From contig JAFGMI010000030.1 in NCBI GenBank assembly GCA_016927595.1, positions 1 through 64,000 of the forward strand: a stretch of 64,000 nucleotides of DNA. Reading direction: 5' to 3'. Both the position numbers and the translations under genes were made by a program. The notes below the pieces were generated by a model. It worked only from the letters and a program-made list of their open reading frames with translations, was not told where the DNA came from and ran no database searches. This document shows, one piece after another, positions 4,552-37,959 of the stretch; position 1 is the first letter of the stretch; each line of letters starts with the position of its first letter. Origin of the DNA: Melioribacteraceae bacterium. Lineage in GTDB: Bacteria; Bacteroidota; Ignavibacteria; Ignavibacteriales; Melioribacteraceae.

Positions 4552-6798
4552 CTAATTGAAAGTAACTGTAAATTTCGATCCTGATCCCTTGCTGCTTTTT
4601 ACATCAATCGTTGCGTTATTGATTTCGCAATAATTTCTTACCAGCGCAAGTCCTAGTCCGGTACCCTCAAAACGGCGGGTGTATCCTTTATCCTCCTGCG
4701 AAAAGGGTTCAAATAACTGAGGCAAATATTCATCTGATATGCCTATACCGGAATCCTCTACAGTAACCGAAATTTCCCCTTTTTCATTGATACCAGTATA
4801 AACATTTACGCTTCCGTTACCCGTGTACTTTATTGCGTTGTCAATAAGGTTTACAAATATCTGTGTTACCGAATATTCATCAATCTTGAGTAAGTAATCA
4901 TCTGCGGTATTATTTTTAAAATTTAGTTTTAATCCCTTTACTTTAGCAGACACCTCAAATTCCTGAATTACAGGTTTAATTATTTCCTCAATCAGGTTAA
5001 TGTTTTTAAATTGTGCCTGGTAAGAGTTGGTTTGTACGGAGGACATATTCAGTATGAGGTCAATTGTTCTGATAAGTCTTTTACCGCCAAGATCCATCAT
5101 ATCGAAACTGATACTTAACTCATCGTCTATTTTTCCCTTTAACTCGGATTTCAGCAGATTTGAAAAACTTAATATACTGTTTACCGGTGTTCTGATTTCA
5201 TGAGACATTTGAGCAAGGAATTCGGACTTTAATTTATTTGATTTCTCGGCTTCCTCTTTTGCTCTGATCGTTAAGTTCTCAAAATTCTTTCTTTCCGTAA
5301 TATCATGCTTAATACAAATATAGTGGCTGATTTCCCCGTCGTTGTTTTGAACGGGTGTTATAGACATCTCCTCGTAGTAAATTTCACCATTCTTTCTCTT
5401 ATTCTGGATTTCTCCGAACCACACTTCACCGAATAAAATTGTCCGCCATAGATTGAGATAGAAATCATCATTGTGTGCACCCGATTTGAACAAATTTGTA
5501 TTAGCACCAATTAATTCTGAATGATCGTAACCGCTGATTCTCGATACTGCTTTATTGCACCAGATAATTTTTCCTTTTTTATCGGAGATAAGGATACCGT
5601 TATAAGCCGAATCCATTGCACTTTTCTGAAGATTAATTTGTTCTTCGGCATATTTCTTCTCTGTTGTTTCAGAGCTTAATCCCTGGTATATAAAATCGTC
5701 ACCCTGTTTTTCAATTAAAGTTAATCTGTCATTAAACCATCTCCAACGATGATTAATATCCTTCAACCTGTAATCAACCGAAGTTGATCTGTTTTCGGCA
5801 GCATTTTTTAATGCCAATTCATAATTAGGAAGATCATTCGGGTGAATTAAACTGATCCAGAATTCCCTGTTGCTGTATACCTGGTCAAGTTTATATCCCA
5901 ATACTGAATAAAGCCTGGGTGAGAAATATATGGCTCCGTTTTTTAATGAGTAGGTGTATATTATCTCCGGTGAATTTTCAACTAAGGTACGGTACCTTTT
6001 CTCGTTCTCTTTTATAATATCTTCAACGTTCTTTTTATGTGTCATATCCTGAAAAACAAGTACAACTCCAAGAATATTCCCCTTTTCATCTTTAATAGGG
6101 GCTGCCGAATCCATTATTGGTCGTACAGTTCCATCCTTCGCTATTAACGCAGTATGATTTGCAAGACCAATTTTATTGCCGTCTCTGAGAATTTTGCTGA
6201 CCGGATTTTCAGCAGCATCTCCGCTGATTTCATTTACGATTCTAAAGAAGGAAGTAAGATCTTTCCCGATGGTTTCTCTCATAGAATAACCTGTAAGTTT
6301 TTCCGCCACCGGATTCATAAACGACACTTTACCATTTGTATCGGTTGCGATAACAGCATCACCTATACTGTTAAGAACTGTGCTTAGCCATTCATCCTTT
6401 TCTCTTATCCTTTTCTGCGATTCGTATTTATGCATAGCCATTTCAATCGATATCAATAACTCCTTTTCCTGAAACGGTTTAATAATGTAACCGAATGGCT
6501 CTGTTAATTTCACCCTCTGGAGTGTGTTTTCATCCGTGTATGCAGTCAGGAATACGACCGGAACGTCATTAGTTTCTTTCAGAATTCTTGCTGTCTGAAT
6601 ACCGTCCAGCTCGCCTTTTAACATTATATCCATCAAAACCAGATCGGGCAGTGCTTCATTGATTTTAACTAATGCCACTTCGCCGGAACTTGCAGTTCCA
6701 CAAACCTGATAACCTAAATCCAGCAGTCTGTCGTGAATTTCAAGCGCTACTATGTTCTCATCTTCTACTACAAATATTTTTTTGTTCTTGGAAACCAT
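4552..6798 (-). CDS. Hybrid sensor histidine kinase: receiver, three PAS domains, HisKA, HATPase
   Basis: Cytosolic signalling protein of 748 residues with no membrane segment. Domains in order: a receiver (about 8-122) with acidic pair E12/D13, phospho-acceptor Asp57 in DLVLMDIML and the conserved Lys in IIKPFQEKEL. Then come PAS domains at roughly 135-250, 270-380 and 395-505, the last followed by a PAC-like segment. The HisKA domain has His533 in QMSHEIRTP, and the ATPase has N box LIDNAIKY, G1 DSGIGI and G2 GTGLGL. It lies 86 bp downstream of another kinase in the same direction. A receiver at the N-terminus of a kinase suggests that it accepts phosphate from that upstream kinase and relays it onward. 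It has no DNA-binding output, so the final target is not visible here. Confidence 0.9.
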   Translation of the reverse strand: MVSKNKKIFVVEDENIVALEIHDRLLDLGYQVCGTASSGEVALVKINEALPDLVLMDIMLKGELDGIQTARILKETNDVPVVFLTAYTDENTLQRVKLTEPFGYIIKPFQEKELLISIEMAMHKYESQKRIREKDEWLSTVLNSIGDAVIATDTNGKVSFMNPVAEKLTGYSMRETIGKDLTSFFRIVNEISGDAAENPVSKILRDGNKIGLANHTALIAKDGTVRPIMDSAAPIKDEKGNILGVVLVFQDMTHKKNVEDIIKENEKRYRTLVENSPEIIYTYSLKNGAIYFSPRLYSVLGYKLDQVYSNREFWISLIHPNDLPNYELALKNAAENRSTSVDYRLKDINHRWRWFNDRLTLIEKQGDDFIYQGLSSETTEKKYAEEQINLQKSAMDSAYNGILISDKKGKIIWCNKAVSRISGYDHSELIGANTNLFKSGAHNDDFYLNLWRTILFGEVWFGEIQNKRKNGEIYYEEMSITPVQNNDGEISHYICIKHDITERKNFENLTIRAKEEAEKSNKLKSEFLAQMSHEIRTPVNSILSFSNLLKSELKGKIDDELSISFDMMDLGGKRLIRTIDLILNMSSVQTNSYQAQFKNINLIEEIIKPVIQEFEVSAKVKGLKLNFKNNTADDYLLKIDEYSVTQIFVNLIDNAIKYTGNGSVNVYTGINEKGEISVTVEDSGIGISDEYLPQLFEPFSQEDKGYTRRFEGTGLGLALVRNYCEINNATIDVKSSKGSGSKFTVTFN

Positions 6799-6884
6799 AT
6801 TTCACCAGCATTTACAGAAACGGAATTTTCCTTTTTATTATCGATACTTATTTTGTGATTTAAAGTATATAACCAAAGCTCTTT

Positions 6885-8891
6885 TCAATTCTTTACTCTT
6901 ATCTTAAAAAATGTACCATTTTCATTTTCTATGGTCAGATCTGCATCAAGCTGATCAATTAAGTTCTGAACGAGCTGCAAGCCCAGTGATTTAGTTTCTT
7001 TTATATTCAGATCCTTCGGCAGTCCGATACCATTATCGCCGATCTCAATCTCAAGCTGATTATCAAATGTTCTTAAAATGATGTAAACATTCATTTCAGT
7101 TTCTGCTTTAAAAGAATCGGGGAAGGCATATTTAAAGGAATTTGAAAGCAGTTCGTTTATTATTAGTCCGAGAGGTATTGCAGTTTCGACCGACACGAAA
7201 ACCTGTTTGAGATCATAAATTATTTTTATGTTTTTCGACGAGGTTTTATACGAATTTGAGACGAATACACCAAGATTTCGTATGTATTCCGAAAAATTGA
7301 CCGATGACAGATCATCTGAATTATAAAGTTTTTCATGCACCAAAGCCATCGACTTAACCCTGTTCTGACTGTCGGCAAAAATTGCAAGTGATTCGGGATC
7401 ATCAATTTTACGTGACTGCAGGTAAAGTAAGCTCGAAATTATCTGAAGATTATTTTTAACTCTGTGGTGTATTTCTTTAAGCAGAACAACTTTTTCTTTT
7501 AATGAATCCTGCAGATTTTTTGCATGTTCCGATAATTGCTCTTCGAGCCTTGACTGAGCAATTGCGATGGCAAGCTGCGATCCTATTTCAATTATTATCG
7601 AAATTTCGTCTTCACTGAATGAATTCGGTTCATTGCGCGCAATAATAAATTCGCCGAGAATTTCATTCTGAATTTTCATGGGAAATGTTGTATATGACTT
7701 TAAACCAATATCATACATTTTCTTCTCAAGAAAGGTAAGGCTGAGTTCCTTATCCAGGTTTTTCTTGTATATTAAATTTAATCCGTTGAATTTATCAATG
7801 TCCTGTACGGAATCGATTGAAATTTCCTCTGATATGCTTGTTAATTCGTCACTTATTTTTGTCATTGAATGAATTGAAGCCGTATAACTTTCGTTATCGT
7901 ACATCATTATACTTATTTTATCGAAGTTCAGCAATTTCGCATTGAGAGTTTTGAAGGTGTCGAAAATAATTTCCTTGGTTGATTTGGCTGAAATTATATT
8001 TCTGTAAATCTCCTGAAGCGCTTCAAGCCTTAGAGTATATTTGTTAAGTGAATTCTGCGTCTTAATTCTTTCCTTTACCTCTTTCATCAGTGCAGCATTT
8101 GTTTCGGCAAGTTCGGCAGTTCTCTCTTTTACGCGTTGTTCAAGTCTTGTTCTTGAATCGTTCAATGCAACTGTCATTTTATTTACCGAATTCGATAAGC
8201 TTTCAAGTTCATCGCCGGTTTTAATGCCGGATGTTACGCTTAAATTCCCCTCTGAAATTCTTTTAACGATATCATTCAGAAGCGTTATAGGTTTGGTGAA
8301 TCTGGTTGCGAAAAACAGTGATGTTATAAATCCGATAATTGTAAGAACTGCAGCTAAGAAAACTGTTCGGATAGTGATAGTATTTTTAGCTTCATAGTAA
8401 CTGTCGAGAGAGAGACCTACATGTATCCAGCCCCAATCGATGCCGGAATAAACAAAATTGTGCGAATAATTAAATACTTCCCGGTTAACAAGGCTTGAAA
8501 ATACAATCTGAGGATCGCTCGATTTATCGGGGAGCCAGAATTTATCGGTTAAATTATCAATTTCCCAGTTGTCCTTTTTAAACAGTATTGCGAAGCCGTC
8601 CCGCTTTACTATAACTATATATAAAATCGATTTGCTTCTTTCGATCAGATTAAGCTGAAAGTCTATTATATCATGATAATCTTCAATCATTAAAGAAGGT
8701 GCATTGGAATTTATAATCGACGATACCAAATCATTGGCTTCGGTTTTCATTCTATTTAAAATCACTTCATCCTGATAAGGCAGACTGAAAACGACAAACA
8801 GTATTATTGTGACAATGATCAGAATCCATGCAAAGATTGCTGTTTTAAATGCGATACTTTTCGACAGTATTGTGATTCTTTCTCTGTTCAT
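6885..8891 (-). CDS. Membrane sensor histidine kinase: periplasmic sensor, HAMP, GAF, HisKA_2
   Basis: 668 residues. A membrane segment at about 13-33 is followed by a periplasmic sensor domain of about 140 residues. A second membrane segment at about 178-200 leads into a HAMP domain and a coiled coil. A GAF-like domain lies at roughly 300-455, then a HisKA_2 phospho-acceptor box EIHHRVKNNLQ (His475/His476), then an ATPase domain with N box INELLSNSFKYAF and DNGIGLP. HisKA_2 kinases usually feed stand-alone receivers, which fits the REC-bearing kinase next downstream. It starts only 8 bp after a PhnD-like binding protein gene. The inference is that the two periplasmic binding proteins present a ligand to this sensor. 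Confidence 0.88.
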   Translation of the reverse strand: MNRERITILSKSIAFKTAIFAWILIIVTIILFVVFSLPYQDEVILNRMKTEANDLVSSIINSNAPSLMIEDYHDIIDFQLNLIERSKSILYIVIVKRDGFAILFKKDNWEIDNLTDKFWLPDKSSDPQIVFSSLVNREVFNYSHNFVYSGIDWGWIHVGLSLDSYYEAKNTITIRTVFLAAVLTIIGFITSLFFATRFTKPITLLNDIVKRISEGNLSVTSGIKTGDELESLSNSVNKMTVALNDSRTRLEQRVKERTAELAETNAALMKEVKERIKTQNSLNKYTLRLEALQEIYRNIISAKSTKEIIFDTFKTLNAKLLNFDKISIMMYDNESYTASIHSMTKISDELTSISEEISIDSVQDIDKFNGLNLIYKKNLDKELSLTFLEKKMYDIGLKSYTTFPMKIQNEILGEFIIARNEPNSFSEDEISIIIEIGSQLAIAIAQSRLEEQLSEHAKNLQDSLKEKVVLLKEIHHRVKNNLQIISSLLYLQSRKIDDPESLAIFADSQNRVKSMALVHEKLYNSDDLSSVNFSEYIRNLGVFVSNSYKTSSKNIKIIYDLKQVFVSVETAIPLGLIINELLSNSFKYAFPDSFKAETEMNVYIILRTFDNQLEIEIGDNGIGLPKDLNIKETKSLGLQLVQNLIDQLDADLTIENENGTFFKIRVKN

Positions 8892-8899
8892 TGTTGACT

Positions 8900-9853
8900 T
8901 TATTGTTTACGGAAAAACTTTTTATACTTTCTGTATAGTAACTCTGAAGCTTTAAGCGACTCGTTGTTTACCGAATACATTCTGCCGATTTTAAATAAAT
9001 TTAGAATTTGTTTTCCTTCTTCATCCTCATGTAAACGTACTGCAGCTTCCATTACATTCTTCATCACTGATTCATTGTTGTATTTGCTGACTGCAAATAT
9101 CTTTGTTACAAGCTCGTCAGAGCGCAGGAGCACAGTAATATTATTGGAAATCTGCGGGTTTAACTCTTTTAAAATTTTAAATGAATTCTCGGAAATAAGC
9201 GCGCAGTCTGTTTTTTTGAAAAATAATTCGTAAACAGCTTTTGATTCCGTATCCTGCATGATTATCTTATTGAAGAAATCGTCCGAATTAATTTTTTCAC
9301 TTTTATATAGTTCAGTATCAAGCCAAATTTTTATCCAATCCGAGTAACCCTGCTTTGAAATAGATATGGTTTTCTGCTTCAACTGTTTTAAGTCATTGAT
9401 GCCGGTCTGTTTATTGATCAATAAGACGTAATGGACAAAAGGACTTTCATTCGATCCTCCGGCAAGAAACGGTTCAAAATCATTTATTTGTCCCAGGTTA
9501 AAGTAATTATTTGTAAACATGCCCAGACTGTTAATTTCGTTCCGGGCAATTGCTTCATCCACTTCGTGCAAATTGTTAAATATTATATGCTTGAAATTAA
9601 TTAGCGGTCCCTTCATTTTTCTTATAAACGAATCTGTAAGCACCTTCATCGATACTTCAGCATCATTCATATTCACATCGGAGAATAACCCTGAAAGCAA
9701 TGCCATTTTAAGGGTATCGTTTTGTCCTGATAATATTGAAGGGGAGAGTAGCAGAAAAAATATTAATATCAGGCTATGTATCCTATGAGAGCAATTACTC
9801 CGCAACATAAGGGCAGAGTCTTGCTCAGAATATTTTCTTTTTAATTGAAGCAT
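8900..9853 (-). CDS. PhnD-like periplasmic binding protein, paralogue 2
   Basis: 317 residues with an N-terminal hydrophobic segment (about 28-44) ending near SGQ, so probably exported. The body resembles the PhnD/SsuA-type type-2 periplasmic binding fold: KMALLSGLFSDVN near the start and a central MQDTESKAVYELFFKKTDCALI, where a family of this kind tests whether the bound peptide is a gene product of a phosphonate-type transporter. No ABC permease or ATPase is nearby. It shares NPQIS, the D(T/S)ESK motif and a C-terminal GKQIL-F segment with the gene just upstream, so the two are tandem paralogues. The role is inferred as a ligand receptor for the sensor kinase 8 bp downstream. Ligand unknown. 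Confidence 0.65.
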   Translation of the reverse strand: MLQLKRKYSEQDSALMLRSNCSHRIHSLILIFFLLLSPSILSGQNDTLKMALLSGLFSDVNMNDAEVSMKVLTDSFIRKMKGPLINFKHIIFNNLHEVDEAIARNEINSLGMFTNNYFNLGQINDFEPFLAGGSNESPFVHYVLLINKQTGINDLKQLKQKTISISKQGYSDWIKIWLDTELYKSEKINSDDFFNKIIMQDTESKAVYELFFKKTDCALISENSFKILKELNPQISNNITVLLRSDELVTKIFAVSKYNNESVMKNVMEAAVRLHEDEEGKQILNLFKIGRMYSVNNESLKASELLYRKYKKFFRKQ

Positions 9854-9859
9854 ACTTAA

Positions 9860-10750
9860 CTAATTCTCAGTTTTATTATATATTTTTTGAATACTGTTCA
9901 TCATATTTTTATCGAATCTTAATACGCTTTTCTGTTTAAAAATTCTCAAAATCTGTTTGCCGGATTCTGTTTCGTTCATTTTTTTTACACCATCTATGAA
10001 AATATCTCTTTCCTTACTCGTAAATTTATTAGTAAGACACATTATACTATGTAACAGCGGTTCAGATTCAGCTAAAATATGAAGACGTGAACTAATCTGT
10101 GGATTCAGTTCGCAGGCGGTATCAAAAACTTTTTTTCTGACGATGCATGCATCTGTTTTACCGAAGAAGCTTGAGTGAATAATCTTTGATTCGGAATCTT
10201 CCCTTATGATCTCGGAAAAGTAATCATTAATGCTTTCACCGGTTTTATTTTTAATATAATAATCAAGCCAGTATTCTCCTATTACGCCGAATCCGTCATG
10301 TGTGCTGGATAATCTGGTATTCTTTAATTCAGCCGATGAGCCGACTTTTTTATTCGTTACGAGACAGTAGATATCCATATCCGCTTCACTTGCGATGAAC
10401 AGAGGTTCGAGTTGAACTTTATTTTTCATTCTCAAATAATCTATTGAGAGGAATACCATCATGTAAGTATTCGACTCATCATAATTACGATTATACAGAT
10501 CCGAAGTACTTATTAATCTTATTCGCGGTTTATAATTTAGATCGGATGATTTAAACAGATCTGAAAGCCATAATTCAAATGATGCCTGGAAATCCCTGCT
10601 TTTGGAATCAGGGAAAAGATTGTCGAGAAACAGAAAATTAATTTCCTTTGGGTTCTCTTTAGCGGAAAAATTACCGGCATACAGATTACCAAAAATTATT
10701 AAGTATAACAAAACTGATGTGAAATATTTCTTATTCTTCAATACCGGCAT
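9860..10750 (-). CDS. PhnD-like periplasmic binding protein, paralogue 1
   Basis: 296 residues with a signal peptide (basic start, hydrophobic core about 10-24, NLYAG). It shares an IREDSESK...FFGKTDACIV segment, CELNPQIS and ESGKQILRIF with the following gene, so a local duplication is clear. The family is the PhnD-like group of substrate-binding proteins. The start overlaps the end of the TolC-like gene by 20 bp and the stop is 6 bp from the paralogue, so translation is probably coupled. No transporter partner is encoded nearby, which argues for sensing instead of uptake. Confidence 0.65.
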   Translation of the reverse strand: MPVLKNKKYFTSVLLYLIIFGNLYAGNFSAKENPKEINFLFLDNLFPDSKSRDFQASFELWLSDLFKSSDLNYKPRIRLISTSDLYNRNYDESNTYMMVFLSIDYLRMKNKVQLEPLFIASEADMDIYCLVTNKKVGSSAELKNTRLSSTHDGFGVIGEYWLDYYIKNKTGESINDYFSEIIREDSESKIIHSSFFGKTDACIVRKKVFDTACELNPQISSRLHILAESEPLLHSIMCLTNKFTSKERDIFIDGVKKMNETESGKQILRIFKQKSVLRFDKNMMNSIQKIYNKTEN

Positions 10751-12134
10751 AGGACGTTCCCAACGTTTTTTCCAGTCTTGCCATCAGTTCATTCCGTTCA
10801 TACAGACTGTACTCGTAGCTGGCTCTGGCAAAAGATTCTATAAATTGTGATTGAATAAACTCTTCAATAGGTGCAAGATCATTCTGATATGCTCTCTCAC
10901 TCAGCTCTCTGTTTTCAATTGCAATATCACGAGCTTTGCGTGAATGAAGAATTTTTTGCATTGCGATATCCATTTTATCATGGATTTCCTTGACCTGAAG
11001 CATCAGTGCGTCTCTATAGTATTTCTCCTGAAGTTCAATTTTCTGTATTTCAAATTCAGCCTCTTGTATTCTGTTCGATGTCAGGAAACCGTTGAATATC
11101 GGCATCCTTAATCCGATGCCTGCAATCCATAAATTATTATTCTCCTTTGTAGCTAGACCATACTGGTACGAATTGTCCATTCGCTGATATTTAGCAAACA
11201 GTCCGATTGACGGATAGTATTCGCTCCTTGCTTCATCAGCCCTAGATCCGTATATCAGTCTCGCATGATGGAGTTTGTTGATAAGCGGATTGCTCCTGAA
11301 CGCCTCATTAACTAATTCATGAAAAGTTGCTGATAATGAATCTTCTCTCTGTGTAGGCGCTACATCAATTTCATCGCTTAAATCAACACCGGTTAAAAAT
11401 TTTAATCCGTTAAATGCAATTTCTTTATTGGCTCTTATTTCACTGACCATTGCCTGAAGCGTTTCGAGAAACATTTTATTTTTTAAATAATCTATCTTGT
11501 TTACACTTTCGGAACCGGATAGATACAAATTTTCGGTTATTCTTAATGTCGCTCGCATTCTTTCGATGGTTTGAGATGCGATATTACCAAGTTCTTTTGT
11601 GAGCAGACAGGCGTAGAAAACTTTTTTTGTGTTATATATCAATTCATTTTCCGAATTCCGTGCAGAGTATTTTGCAACCATCACATTGTTTTCAGCCTGC
11701 TCGATGACAGAAGATATTTTTCCGCCGGTAAAAAGCGGATACAAAATATCTATCGATGTCATTAAGTTGGTCTTGTCTGCAAGTTTTATTTCCTGGGCTG
11801 GAACATCTATCGGTGGCATGTTAAAATTCAGCATTCCTAAATTTATCTCAGGTACCTGAAATTTCATTGCAGGCTGAACAAAGTTAAGATATTCATCTTG
11901 TGTGGAGAGAACCGAATTCAATTCCACTGAAGGGTAGTTGGCTGATTGCGCCTGTCTTAACTGTGCCTGCGAAATAACCATATCCTTCGCCGATATTTTA
12001 AGCGAGATGTTATTTTCAATCGCAGATTTCAAACATTCTTCAAGCGTATAAACTCTGATCGTCTTCTCCTGAGCGAAAAGAGAAATGGTGATGAGAATAA
12101 TTGATAACACTTTTATTCTGTTATTATTTATCAT
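10731..12134 (-). CDS. TolC-family outer membrane efflux protein
   Basis: Outer membrane channel of the OEP family, about 467 residues. A signal peptide is followed by YTLEECLKSAIENN, the usual first helix of TolC-like proteins. Two long alpha-helical hairpins rich in E, N, A and Q follow, and NRIQEAEFEIQ lies before the second. I choose ATG 12134 because AAGGGG sits 8 bp before it; an upstream ATG at 12197 is less likely. No inner-membrane pump or periplasmic adaptor is adjacent. Instead it overlaps the first of two PhnD-like binding proteins, which is odd for an efflux operon. It may work with a pump elsewhere, or have been recruited to a sensing unit. Confidence 0.85.
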   Translation of the reverse strand: MINNNRIKVLSIILITISLFAQEKTIRVYTLEECLKSAIENNISLKISAKDMVISQAQLRQAQSANYPSVELNSVLSTQDEYLNFVQPAMKFQVPEINLGMLNFNMPPIDVPAQEIKLADKTNLMTSIDILYPLFTGGKISSVIEQAENNVMVAKYSARNSENELIYNTKKVFYACLLTKELGNIASQTIERMRATLRITENLYLSGSESVNKIDYLKNKMFLETLQAMVSEIRANKEIAFNGLKFLTGVDLSDEIDVAPTQREDSLSATFHELVNEAFRSNPLINKLHHARLIYGSRADEARSEYYPSIGLFAKYQRMDNSYQYGLATKENNNLWIAGIGLRMPIFNGFLTSNRIQEAEFEIQKIELQEKYYRDALMLQVKEIHDKMDIAMQKILHSRKARDIAIENRELSERAYQNDLAPIEEFIQSQFIESFARASYEYSLYERNELMARLEKTLGTSYAGIEE

Positions 12135-12205: not shown

Positions 12206-12733
12206 TTACTTTTTTGCACTAAAATATTGTGTGTAGATGTTTTGATATGACAAATAATCTGATTCACTGAAGCAAACCAGATAGATAAGTTTTAAGGTTG
12301 AATTAGTTTTTAAAAACTTTATGATAGTTGTAAGTGCAATTTGTGAAGCTGATTCAAAGGGGAATCCGTATACACCTGTGCTGATAGAAGGAAAAGCAAT
12401 GGTGTACAATCCATGACTTACAGCAAGCTCTAGACTGTTTTTGTAACAATCAGCAAGCAGCTTTTTTTCGTTATTACCGCCTCCATGCCATACCGGTCCT
12501 ACTGTATGAATAACAAATTTTGCCGGCAGATTATATGCACTTGTTATCTTTGCCTTTCCCGTTCCGCATCCTCCCAGTTTCCTGCATTCATTTAGTAGTC
12601 CGGGACCGGCTGCTCTGTGTATTGCGCCGTCAACACCGCCGCCTCCAAGCAATGTGTTATTTGCAGCATTTACTACTGCGTCTACTTTCAGCTTGGTTAT
12701 ATCACCTTTAACTATTTTTACAACATCGAGCAT
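12206..12733 (-). CDS. Macrodomain protein, probable O-acetyl-ADP-ribose deacetylase
   Basis: 175 residues from ATG 12733; a TTG at 12802 overlapping the upstream stop is possible, but its extra 23 residues do not belong to the family. It is a single macrodomain: [28 protein letters not shown] (the ADP-ribose loop), [10 protein letters not shown] and [12 protein letters not shown]. This pattern belongs to the YmdB/MacroD-like group, which removes acetyl or ADP-ribosyl groups from ADP-ribose esters. It lies 49 bp after a cupin gene in a minus-strand run. It could also serve in ADP-ribosylation reversal. Confidence 0.88.
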
Positions 12734-12782
12734 CGGTTTAATTTTTGAATTTATGCAAGTAAAATTTTGTTCAATGATTATA

Positions 12783-13283
12783 TCAGGAAGTAAGTCTGTC
12801 AATCAGTATTTTGTGCTGGGGATAATCTTCGATAAGTTTTGATTTGTCCGCCAGCTCAAAGTCTTCGAAATCAAAACCCGGTATTACGGTGCATCCAACC
12901 AAAGAGTATGAATTTTTGTTACTTAACTCAGCAGCGAACCAGGTTAGAGCAGGTATAACTATCTGCGGTTTTTCCGAGTCCACAAGATTTTTGCCAAGCT
13001 TTAACAATTTATAACTGCCGTTTTCATCAAGCGTATGGATATGAACAGAACATCCGTCAATATGATGCCATATTTCTTCGGAAAGGAGTCTGTGAAAATT
13101 ACTTTTATTTTTCTCACGCAAAAGGTAGTAAATTCCGGTACCGAGTGAACGTTCGGCTGTATGAATCTGAGCGAGAGAATCCGATTTTATTTTATTTTTG
13201 GACCGGTAATATTCTTTGTAATACCCGCCTTCGGGATGAGGGGACATGTTTAAAAGCTCAATATAGTAATCGGCATTACTCAT
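12783..13283 (-). CDS. Cupin protein of the DUF985 (cupin_5) family
   Basis: 166 residues with the family order: [13 protein letters not shown] near the N-terminus, [27 protein letters not shown], then a [12 protein letters not shown] segment and the [18 protein letters not shown] tail. The family is a small beta-barrel; members are sometimes annotated as sugar or nucleotide binding, but no reaction is established that I would assert. Its start overlaps the esterase stop by 8 bp, so the two are probably translationally coupled. Confidence 0.85.
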
Positions 13284-14064
13284 CGTTTATGCTGAATAAA
13301 AACGAGAGCGGAATATGAACTCTCTTTGCCCATGAAGATTCGTTATGCTTACCATTCTCATCAAAATAGCACTTAAAGTTTTTTTTATCATAACCTATGT
13401 TTTTAATTATTCTGCACATCTGTTTCGTATCTGTAAGTAATTCTTTCTCGTGTAAACCGCAGTCGATGTACAATCTGCTTTTTTCTCTGGGTTTATGGTC
13501 AGTAATTTTGGTAAAAATCTTCCTATCGTCAACCCAGAATGAACTTGACATGCAGGCTGCTTTACCGAAAACGGAAGGGTAGTTAATAAACAATTGGAAA
13601 GAAAACAGACCGCCCATTGACGAACCCATTGTAGCTGTATCATATGATCCTGTAAGAGTTCTGTATTGTTCATCTATATAATTTTTCAGTTCATAGATTA
13701 AAAAGTGCGAATAACTTTTACCCTTTGATGTATCCAGATTATATTCGTCAATCCGGTTTCTGGTATTGTAAATTGCTACGACAATTACTTCGCGGATAAG
13801 ATTACTTACAATCAAACGTCTAAAAGTCTCGTCTACTTTCCAATCGAAACCGGTAAAGGATGTTTTGGGATTAAATACATTCTGACCATCATGGATGTAT
13901 AACACAGGGTATGGCTTCATGCAACTTTTATAAGAGGGTGGCAACAATACTATAATATCGCGTTCATTCTTTGTATAGATGCTGTAGAAATCGGGTATAT
14001 GGTCGTAATCGCCGATTATATCGTCATTCTCAGGAGAAGAATTTATTTTTAATTGTGCCTGCAT
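13276..14064 (-). CDS. Alpha/beta hydrolase, esterase D/Fes-like family
   Basis: 262 residues, no signal peptide, so probably cytosolic. It has the putative-esterase fold: PVLYIHDGQNVF, a nucleophile elbow GSSMGG with Ser149, the acid in YIDCGLHEKE and a histidine in GKHNESSW. Family members hydrolyse trilactone siderophores, S-formylglutathione or other esters; the sequence does not fix the substrate. No iron-uptake genes are nearby. It sits between a TerB-like gene (18 bp upstream) and the cupin gene. Confidence 0.8.
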   Translation of the reverse strand: MQAQLKINSSPENDDIIGDYDHIPDFYSIYTKNERDIIVLLPPSYKSCMKPYPVLYIHDGQNVFNPKTSFTGFDWKVDETFRRLIVSNLIREVIVVAIYNTRNRIDEYNLDTSKGKSYSHFLIYELKNYIDEQYRTLTGSYDTATMGSSMGGLFSFQLFINYPSVFGKAACMSSSFWVDDRKIFTKITDHKPREKSRLYIDCGLHEKELLTDTKQMCRIIKNIGYDKKNFKCYFDENGKHNESSWAKRVHIPLSFLFSINDE

Positions 14065-14082
14065 CTGCCATCAAAAAAACAG

Positions 14083-14499
14083 TTAAATATATTTCCTGAC
14101 ATTAAGTAAAAAATCTGCAGTACTATGTTCGTCATTATTCAGAATTTGTTTAATAGTATTGCCGAACCAGATATCATCAATTTCATTTACTTTTAAAATG
14201 TTCGTTAAATATTCAAGCTCCTCGGGGTTGAGTTCATTATCGGATACGGCAAGCCTCAGACCGTCAATAATAAAACTTTTCGCGAACTCTTTATTAGAAA
14301 ACCTGGGAACATCATCAATCAGATATTCATTATCCAGTAATTCTTTTATAGCGGTAAGACAAAATTTTTGTTCAAATCCCAGTACTTTTCCGATATCAAT
14401 AAGTATTTTTTTCTCGGCTTCAGTAATTTTCCTATCCTTTCTCATAAGAATCAGCATGCTTTTGAAGTACTTGCTTTTTTCCTGTACAGGTAATGTCAA
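14083..14499 (-). CDS. TerB-like helical protein
   Basis: 138 residues, all-helical by composition, with two similar halves: KITEAEKKILIDIGKVLGF and DNELNPEELEYLTNILKVN. Acidic residues after each helix resemble the TerB tellurite-resistance fold. No other ter genes are present, so tellurite resistance is not implied. It is the first gene of the long minus-strand run and is divergent from 14740. Confidence 0.5.
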   Translation of the reverse strand: MTLPVQEKSKYFKSMLILMRKDRKITEAEKKILIDIGKVLGFEQKFCLTAIKELLDNEYLIDDVPRFSNKEFAKSFIIDGLRLAVSDNELNPEELEYLTNILKVNEIDDIWFGNTIKQILNNDEHSTADFLLNVRKYI

Positions 14500-36313: not shown

Positions 36314-37762
36314 TCATTTTTTAGCGTTTAGCAGGTTTTTCATTTTTTGCAAATTATGAGAAGCCTGAAACCACCCGTTTTTGAACCCCGCGTAATCCGG
36401 ACCCATCATTGCAGTTGCATACCTGATCGAATTAGCATAAAATAACCATTGGTGCTGCCAGTAGAATTCTATATTCTCATCGAACGGATTTGAAGGATCG
36501 GCAATGCCCTTTTCCCAGGCTTGCTGCATCATTTTTGTGGCGGTAAAGACCATCTGATCTGCCATGCTGTTCACTTCGTCAATTTTCTTCAGCTGTTTCT
36601 CCGTCCAGTTTGATCCATGGCACGACCGGCATACATTAAACATTTTTTCCTTTCTTGCAGATTGTTCCGTTTTATCTATTAAAAATTCAGTTGCCTGCAC
36701 ATTCACAAAATTGGTTGGCAGCGGAAGTCCGTCGGAATTTTTAATTTCGTATGTGCGCGGTGATTTAGGCTGCGGATGTGAGTAAATCAATCCGAAAATT
36801 CTAACCCACAATCTTGAACCGAAATCATGAGTTCGTTCAGCAATTATGTTTTCATCATTATCTACAAGCAATGAGTTATGACAAGTAGCACAGGTAGGTG
36901 CCGTTATGTCTTTGCTCATATTCCAAGGAACATTCGAAAAATTCATATCCATGTGTTTGCTCGAGAATATATTTCCGTGTTTGCTCTCTTTATAAACATT
37001 ATAAGCCGGGACATCGGGTTCGAGATGGCATTGTGCGCATGTATATGGTTTACGCGCTGTCTCAATCGAGAAAGAATGGCGCGGGTGGCATGATGTGCAT
37101 GCGCCGAAACTTCCGTCGGGATTAATTCTTCCCACACCCTGATTAGGCCAGTTTGTTAGGTTCGGGACATCAATTTCACCAAGATCTGTTTTAATAGTTT
37201 TCATACCTTCTACATCTACAACGGTTCCATGGCAGGCAAAACAGGATTCACCAGAGCTCATTTCATTACTGCCGTGATAATAGATTTCTCCTTCGTCAAA
37301 ATCTTTCGGAGAAGTAATTGTCTTAACAAGCATGGAGTAAACAGGATTTTTTTTAAGAATGTCATGAGCATATGCCTTTTTCGAATTGCCGTACTCATTT
37401 GTTTCCACAGGATGACAAGTGCTGCAGTCGTTAGGGCTAACAACAACATTAATCGTGTAACCGAAATGATCGAAAGCATCTTTATGGCTATCAGTGTTTA
37501 GTGAATGACATTCATAGCATCCGACTGCAACTTCTGTTGGTATTATACCATTGATATCGGTGATGGAAATTCTTCTTTCCAGTTCACCCCTGTTTATAGC
37601 AAGCTTTAAAGATGAATTTGAATGAAGACTACTCTTCCAGTCCGATACAATACCCGGAGTAACTGCAATATGGCAATCAAGGCATTCACTTGTTTCGGTA
37701 CTAATTTTCTGAGCGCATAGGAAACTGCTCATTATTAAAAATAAAAAAGCTGTTTTTCTCAT
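36314..37762 (-). CDS. Octaheme c-type cytochrome, hydroxylamine oxidoreductase-like
   Basis: 482 residues from ATG 37762, which has AAGGGGG 9 bp upstream; signal peptide MRKTAFLFLIMSSFLCAQ. Eight CxxCH motifs: CLDCH, CYECH, CSTCH, CFACH, CTSCH, CAQCH, CATCH and CRSCH. The heme spacing and the C-terminal helix region with QHQWLFYANSIRYATAMMG resemble the HAO/octaheme family that oxidises hydroxylamine or reduces nitrite/hydroxylamine. I cannot place the HAO crosslinking tyrosine, so direction of catalysis is open. It lies directly upstream of ccmC-F, fitting a shared need for heme attachment. Periplasmic. Confidence 0.78.
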   Translation of the reverse strand: MRKTAFLFLIMSSFLCAQKISTETSECLDCHIAVTPGIVSDWKSSLHSNSSLKLAINRGELERRISITDINGIIPTEVAVGCYECHSLNTDSHKDAFDHFGYTINVVVSPNDCSTCHPVETNEYGNSKKAYAHDILKKNPVYSMLVKTITSPKDFDEGEIYYHGSNEMSSGESCFACHGTVVDVEGMKTIKTDLGEIDVPNLTNWPNQGVGRINPDGSFGACTSCHPRHSFSIETARKPYTCAQCHLEPDVPAYNVYKESKHGNIFSSKHMDMNFSNVPWNMSKDITAPTCATCHNSLLVDNDENIIAERTHDFGSRLWVRIFGLIYSHPQPKSPRTYEIKNSDGLPLPTNFVNVQATEFLIDKTEQSARKEKMFNVCRSCHGSNWTEKQLKKIDEVNSMADQMVFTATKMMQQAWEKGIADPSNPFDENIEFYWQHQWLFYANSIRYATAMMGPDYAGFKNGWFQASHNLQKMKNLLNAKK

Positions 37763-37959
37763 GAATGACCCCCTTTGTATAAAAGGATTCTTATATCTAA
37801 AAATAAAACTATAATCCACTTAAAGCAAATTTTCAATTTTATAATTAAATGCATGTGTGAATGTAAATTTCAGAAGGAGGTATAAAATAGGAGAAACATA
37901 TACAATTTTATGACGTCTAATAAATCGGTAAATTAATAAAGCTGTAAGATAAAATTTAA

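Follow-up and report, generated by a model that had tools for sequence, protein, structure and literature searches.

Why should an operon of periplasmic binding proteins and histidine kinases begin with a gene for a TolC-family outer-membrane protein, when TolC channels are textbook export ducts? The question is raised by a five-gene block at positions 4552-12134 of a 64,000-nucleotide stretch of DNA (hereafter the window; positions 1 to 64,000 of the forward strand of contig JAFGMI010000030.1, assembly GCA_016927595.1) from a Melioribacteraceae bacterium whose genome comprises 3.85 Mb in 59 contigs and is 99.8% complete. The block is a real, conserved unit: besides Ignavibacteriales, it turns up in Desulfobacteria, in Verrucomicrobia, and in the phylum of genome G399 (G and L numbers are our labels for genomes and loci). 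We propose, at what we judge to be an even chance, that it encodes an envelope-spanning sensory system in which the channel, the receptors, and a Cache-type kinase form a fixed input with exchangeable outputs.

All five genes lie on the minus strand. The first encodes the TolC-family channel (10731-12134, ATG at 12134; PF02321, OEP, 3.7e-38), which has two OEP stretches and could be read from an alternative TTG start that lengthens it to 12197. It is followed by two PhnD-fold periplasmic receptors, termed receptor B (9860-10750; PF12974, Phosphonate-bd, 7.4e-10), with an N terminus that looks like a signal peptide by eye, and receptor A (8900-9853; PF12974, 2.3e-18). Kinase 1 (6885-8891) comprises a transmembrane segment, a periplasmic single-Cache-like domain, a second transmembrane segment, and HAMP, GAF, HisKA_2 (4.1e-30), and HATPase domains, the GAF match being below the Pfam cut-off. 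By Pfam, kinase 2 (4552-6798), at the variable output end of the block, combines a receiver with PAS domains, HisKA, and HATPase. An initial annotation of this DNA had described the five genes in this order and these places, and the coordinates bear out the 20-bp overlap and the gaps of 6, 8, and 86 bp that join them. Its statement that the cluster contains no ABC transporter components likewise agrees with Pfam, which finds none among the window-block genes. Neither promoter nor terminator scans departed from chance (37 vs 38.0 and 7 vs 6.1, respectively). A defense-system identity was rejected: PADLOC gave no match at 0.001 for TolC, both receptors, and kinase 1 (four of the five proteins, kinase 2 not included).

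Relatives of the locus that bear a taxon label come from an Ignavibacteriae metagenome-assembled genome (MAG), a Bacteroidetes-labelled MAG, and a Melioribacteraceae MAG (order Ignavibacteriales). With receptor A as a single query, matches were obtained in 5 of 58 genomes, its own included; of the four others, three contain TolC, receptors, and kinase 1 (G002 with two receptors, G056 with three, and G027 with five), and the remaining one, G046, has a PhnD-kinase pair without TolC. Among 164 genomes of the order, a receptor profile at 1e-8 picked out 32, which fall into two classes. In the strong class of 11 genomes, with full-length matches of 140-360 bits, TolC lies directly upstream in every case and kinase 1 downstream in 10, the contig of G130 ending before that point. 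The weak class comprises 21 genomes with a best match of at most 70.5 bits; in the 14 for which loci were viewed, a PhnD gene adjoins a kinase, mostly together with a receiver protein, and, by N-terminal sequences, the neighbors include arsenic or molybdoenzyme genes at some of these loci and phosphate-transport-like genes at others. None of these 14 comparison loci, all of which extend 3.7 kb or more upstream of PhnD, contains a TolC detectable with a profile that finds 24 of 24 ordinary outer-membrane efflux proteins (OEPs). TolC, which the initial annotation had called an odd member, is the usual first gene of the block.

Relatives outside the order were sought by scanning genome contigs with the N-terminal part of kinase 1, and they appeared in Desulfobacteria, Verrucomicrobiales, and unclassified bacteria. 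The receptor profile is found in 22 of 291 genomes of the class of G400, a Desulfobacterium MAG (18 with at least 180 bits), in 5 of 141 of the class of G403, a Verrucomicrobiales MAG, in 7 of 82 (one weak) of the phylum of G399, in 3 of 395 of the window's own phylum, and in 1 of 297 of the phylum of a Geobacter MAG. The distribution of the block is therefore patchy but wide. The Geobacter locus itself, L064, was rejected as a member: its match is confined to query residues 153-241, which are mostly HAMP, and no module receptor is found at 1e-6 in its genome, G404. HAMP also swamped a class-wide search with the sensor alignment, in which it gave 75-116 bits vs 387-447 for true copies.

Across all groups, 52 receptor clusters reach at least 110 bits in their best match, and 42 of them are readable for 1000 bp on both sides. 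Clusters with a best receptor below 110 bits (e.g., the XSR-like G902), the G1489 cluster, and four Desulfobacteria matches at 74-79 bits are outside these counts; duplicates (L055-L057 and L061, equal to L021, L018, L020, and L065) were dropped, and L136 and L139 were not entered. TolC and kinase accompany the receptors in 33 of the 42, bearing out by a search for co-occurrence the expectation that the neighborhood is conserved in relatives. Another six have neither partner, and all sit in genomes that hold the full block elsewhere (G002, G502, G504, G779 twice, and G431); in G431, the cluster in question is an additional, second receptor farther along the region of the full block. TolC precedes all receptors in 31 of 35 clusters that have TolC and at least 1000 bp upstream, and in the other four a single receptor precedes it. 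The 34 clusters with TolC and kinase carry one (12), two (14), three (6), four (1), or five (1) receptors, counts that include a few gene fragments (G157, G140). At L022, L172, L176, L206, and L207, module-type receptors stand as orphans with neither TolC nor kinase beside them, always with a full block elsewhere in the genome, and these may feed the kinase in trans.

We compared the module TolCs with OEPs of other kinds, using a profile based on 12 of the 36 module sequences. All 36 score 317-731 bits, vs 26-170 bits for 24 other OEPs, which come from nine of the same genomes. In quick trees, for which SH-aLRT is the only support, the 36 sequences, the window's included, form one side (SH-aLRT 100) apart from the 24 others, on a stem of 1.46 changes per column. 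The window TolC also scores below the NCBIfam TolC cut-off (TIGR01844; 91.3 vs 225.15 bits). The differences include the periplasmic turns, the docking place of export adaptors. At the first turn, module TolCs have a two-residue insertion (S in 29/36, G in 32/36) where all 24 others have a gap, and at the second a glycine kept by 21 of the 24 others is present in only 2 of the 36. The insertion and the lost glycine suggest a docking partner other than the usual adaptor. We rejected the separate idea that conservation in module TolCs is generally higher in the extracellular part than in the periplasmic barrel: this is so in 31 of 33 Ignavibacteriales pairs of 30-40% identity, but in the other phyla, by rising identity band, in 39/100, 15/100, 0/103, and 0/20 pairs.

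The channel and the kinase diverge together. Over 32 loci, the pairwise distances of TolC track those of the kinase sensor domain (r=0.89), and none of 2000 permutations reached this value. The two trees are also alike in that Verrucomicrobia rows group with one and the same set of Desulfobacteria rows. This suggests transfer of the whole block between phyla, and the receptor tree agrees on the placement of Verrucomicrobia for most rows.

Among solved structures, ArrX is nearest to the receptors in sequence (2.5e-13), followed by PtxB (2.5e-8) and BstB (7.5e-5). The AlphaFold model of receptor A (pLDDT 85.7) resembles two-lobed binding proteins, with ArrX, PtxB, BstB, and AioX as close solved folds. 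Because the VIA-align Z values are alike (22.5 for ArrX, 23.7 for PtxB, and 22.6 for BstB, the last over 254 residues at 4.4 Å), the fold alone names no ligand type. The pocket of AioX is described in Badilla 2018 (PMC5908839) as Tyr88, Cys106, Tyr131, Ser161, Ser163, His192, and Asp210, five of these being common to PhnD. These columns were mapped via ArrX onto 86 receptor rows, with fragments and the fused double receptor of G790 left out. Sixty-one module receptors match none of the seven residues, 23 match one, and 2 match two. In the 14 comparison receptors, which are of the XSR type, Tyr88 and Ser161 are each present in 14/14, His192 and Asp210 in 9/14, Cys106 and Tyr131 in 8/14, and Ser163 in 6/14.

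With these oxyanion-pocket residues absent, an arsenic or phosph(on)ate ligand is unlikely, and we rejected it for the module receptors; the phosphonate-type ligand that might be read into the label "PhnD-like" falls with it. Receptor A lies far under the NCBIfam cut-offs for PhnD and TIGR01098 (24.1 vs 261.1 and 32.4 vs 112.05 bits), and receptor B has no NCBIfam match at 0.001. There is no PhnE permease in the cluster, and the window's own genome gives no TIGR01097 (PhnE) match at E<=1e-10; among 11 genomes, four have such a match and one (G056) exceeds the cut-off. A different kind of ligand is hinted at by the column of BstB Tyr120, a residue that docking puts at the ligand head, according to PMC10942540. 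This column holds Tyr in 58 and Phe in 16 of the 86 module receptors, a slight pointer to a non-oxyanion compound.

In the receptor tree, a branch with SH-aLRT 94 separates the module receptors from ArrX, the comparison rows, and BstB, and there are operon-specific duplications, for example in G027 and G147. The receptors also diverge fast: between the window and G002, of the same genus, identity is 90% for enolase and 84% for glutamine synthetase, but 40% for TolC, 35% for kinase 1 in its N-terminal and periplasmic part, and 28% for each of the two receptors. The initial annotation had read the binding proteins as serving sensing rather than transport, and this is upheld by the lack of transporter genes in the window cluster, by ArrX as the nearest solved relative, and by the kinase that follows the receptors in 38 of the 47 clusters whose downstream side can be read.

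The periplasmic part of kinase 1 belongs to no Pfam family, but its sequence is conserved across phyla, and the closest solved folds to its model (pLDDT 82) are the WalK sensor domain and Cache/PDC sensors. Of the kinases beside PhnD genes in the 14 comparison loci, nine weakly match the module sensor profile without HAMP (1.3e-8 to 4e-4), so the pairing of receptor and kinase looks inherited from the same kind of system. The catalytic core is less constant. HisKA_2 is found in the nine Ignavibacteriales copies of kinase 1 that have a readable core and in G870 and G836, and elsewhere it is below the threshold used, so that its loss in other phyla depends on that score threshold. The gene that comes next varies as well: a REC-PAS-HisKA protein in the window and G002, a more distant receiver-headed kinase in G056, a stand-alone receiver in G137, G140, G131, and G157, a REC-GGDEF-EAL protein at L182, and further kinases. 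Kinase 2 is not constant either, being absent beside kinase 1 in G027. Because catalytic cores and downstream genes vary while channel, receptors, and sensor domain stay, the input appears constant and the output exchangeable. At L182, the receiver-GGDEF-EAL protein (12550-14445) follows the block, and the output may be cyclic di-GMP in some genomes.

A relay from kinase 1 to the receiver of kinase 2 had also been suggested, and in outline it has support. In kinase 2, the receiver residues D13, D57, T85, and K107 are invariant in three aligned copies. The stand-alone receivers match the first 126 residues, at most, of the kinase 2 profile with 85-107 bits; their homology to the kinase 2 head supports phosphotransfer from kinase 1 to that head. 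Stand-alone receivers follow kinase 1 in L066, L068, and L070, of genus g2, and in G157, but none does in L067 of the same genus.

We suggest the following scheme. A dedicated TolC-family channel in the outer membrane would admit an extracellular compound, or recognize it and hand it over, and one or more PhnD-fold receptors would bind it in the periplasm. The loaded receptor would then dock on the Cache-like periplasmic domain of kinase 1, which would autophosphorylate in HisKA_2 and pass the phosphate to the receiver of kinase 2, or to a stand-alone receiver in several relatives. The phosphorylated receiver would alter the activity of the PAS-HisKA kinase, with the final output encoded outside the block. 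Somewhat below even in our estimate is the fuller form of this proposal, in which TolC is the outer-membrane part of the sensor rather than an export duct, makes up one envelope-spanning signalling complex with one to five diversified receptors and the Cache kinase, and belongs to a cassette, inherited and passed from phylum to phylum as such, that detects a non-oxyanion, possibly hydrophobic compound from outside the cell. The channel may be an inlet, a docking partner, or an exporter.

The setting of the channel bears on these roles. Thirteen of 37 module TolC loci have no same-strand upstream neighbor within 600 bp (two of them at a contig end); the 24 neighbors of the others comprise 5 receptors, 13 genes scanned with Pfam, and 6 outside the Pfam scan. 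Pfam recognizes no adaptor or pump beside the window TolC, and adaptor-type exporter genes occur among the scanned immediate upstream neighbors only in G541, where HlyD and two ABC-2 permeases lie just upstream of TolC across a gap of 166 bp; G687 has MatE, and in G574 an HlyD gene lies near the block on the opposite strand. A transporter partner adjacent in some relative, which the initial annotation had named as evidence against its view, thus exists in one genome, and within a scan limited to these immediate neighbors it indicates that some members may be export channels. TolC proteins normally serve tripartite exporters. If the module TolC served one that is mostly encoded elsewhere, the receptors and kinase could sense an exported or toxic compound in the periplasm and control its export. 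The G541 arrangement suits this account, but the 13 loci without an upstream neighbor, the single exporter among those scanned, and the rebuilt tips with their missing glycine speak against it, and we regard it as unlikely though not negligible. Still less can be said for the suggestion of the initial annotation that TolC exports a signal, here a self-made one read back by the receptors in a quorum-type loop. In its favor, a single operon would join output to sensing, and the channel is of the TolC family, yet Pfam recognizes no synthase or inner-membrane pump within the window block, and G541 alone has an adaptor-type exporter among the scanned immediate upstream neighbors; we consider it very improbable.

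A sensor of the state of the envelope would need no soluble ligand: PhnD-fold proteins turned adaptors could link the tip of TolC to the Cache domain of the kinase and signal that the channel opens or how far away the outer membrane is. The loss of the oxyanion pocket in 86 of 86 receptors (at most two of seven residues matched), the altered tips, and the several receptor copies per channel are in its favor, but the Tyr or Phe kept at the BstB Tyr120 position in 74 of 86 speaks against it, and fast receptor divergence with duplication within operons fits diversifying ligands better than a fixed bridge. We think this account rather unlikely. That the genes are neighbors by chance or hitch-hiking seems hardly credible; the macro, cupin_5, glutamine synthetase, and enolase flanks are also syntenic in part of Ignavibacteriales, but, to the extent that the maps reach, Desulfobacteria, Verrucomicrobia, and the phylum of G399 have the same block between different flanks, and TolC is missing from all 14 comparison PhnD-kinase loci. 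Several further points, besides the G541 exporter, count against the sensory system that we favor. TolC channels are known as export ducts that are closed at rest. Two of the 42 clusters have receptor and kinase without a nearby TolC, one has TolC without a recognized kinase, and at locus L062 a receptor is missing between TolC and kinase. Shared inheritance would also produce the coupled divergence of TolC and kinase, and the G761 receptor, on a long branch, falls apart from the other Verrucomicrobia rows in the receptor tree, so that the evidence for transfer as a unit is not uniform.

Among known systems, the block is most like the binding-protein-dependent kinases (XSR, LuxPQ, and TorTS); it fails the XSR pocket test and adds a dedicated TolC. 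LuxPQ and TorTS are not known to include an outer-membrane channel gene. Like the XSR arsenic sensors AioX/ArxX/ArrX (PMC5908839), the module places a PF12974-type protein beside a sensor kinase with no ABC partner; unlike them, it lacks the seven pocket residues, has one to five receptors, includes a TolC gene, and, in the window, has only the REC-PAS-HisKA protein in place of a DNA-binding response regulator. With LuxP/LuxQ and TorT/TorS, it shares the linkage of a binding-protein gene to a kinase with a periplasmic domain. In those systems, as PMC8534201 and PMC5908839 state, a separate periplasmic binding protein reports to the kinase and the LuxQ periplasmic domains are PDC (Cache-like); their receptors are of a structurally distinct family, as PMC5908839 says with regard to AioX. 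The sterol-binding BstB of Methylococcus capsulatus (7t1m) resembles the module receptors in having a PhnD fold without the oxyanion-pocket residues and in sharing the N-terminal D and A columns and Tyr at 120, but its profile match is only 7.5e-5, it lies outside the module rows in the receptor tree, and it belongs to a transport set with BstA and BstC (PMC10942540). Outer-membrane factors of tripartite export share PF02321 with the module TolCs, which differ in their separate clade, in their altered tips, and in having an adjoining adaptor and pump only in G541 among the neighbors scanned. PhnD phosphonate uptake proteins differ from the module receptors, which do not reach the NCBIfam cut-offs and have no PhnE in the cluster.

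Limited searches of the openly licensed PMC literature found no description of a block of TolC, PhnD-like, and kinase genes, and, as far as these searches show, a dedicated TolC in a binding-protein-dependent kinase system is undescribed. Only about ten kinases activated by a solute-binding protein have been characterized, according to PMC9602780. If our proposal is true, some bacteria give signals their own route through the outer membrane, with TolC in a sensory operon without a pump, and the block offers a defined three-part system for studying how binding proteins activate kinases. Several receptors on one kinase would add a way of integrating several ligands.

Some observations concern genes around or beside the module. 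A second PhnD-kinase class of Ignavibacteriales (L076, L080, L081, L082, L083, and L084) lies near genes that, by their N termini, resemble Pit-type phosphate transporters and CYTH/VTC proteins. Its pocket signatures are YGSSSQE in four rows, YGFSSQD in one, and YGFSSHD in one, the arsenic type being YCYSTHD, and the class is possibly a phosphate or polyphosphate sensor. The third PF12974 gene of the window's own genome, L024 (G000:C56), follows a rhodanese-like gene near the end of another contig, with no transporter recognized by eye beside it. Upstream of TolC in the window, a macro-domain gene (12206-12802, minus strand; PF01661, 1.1e-47) is the first of a run of macro-domain, Cupin_5, and esterase genes (12206-14064) with the same direction as the block. 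The macro gene also adjoins the block in L021 and, by N-terminal sequences, in L066, L069, and L070; although a neighbor in several Ignavibacteriales, it is probably outside the module. Since macro and cupin genes recur in several Ignavibacteriales, the run may be an older operon that the block joined. Elsewhere in the window, 36314-37819 encodes a multihaem cytochrome with MtrC/MtrF-like matches.

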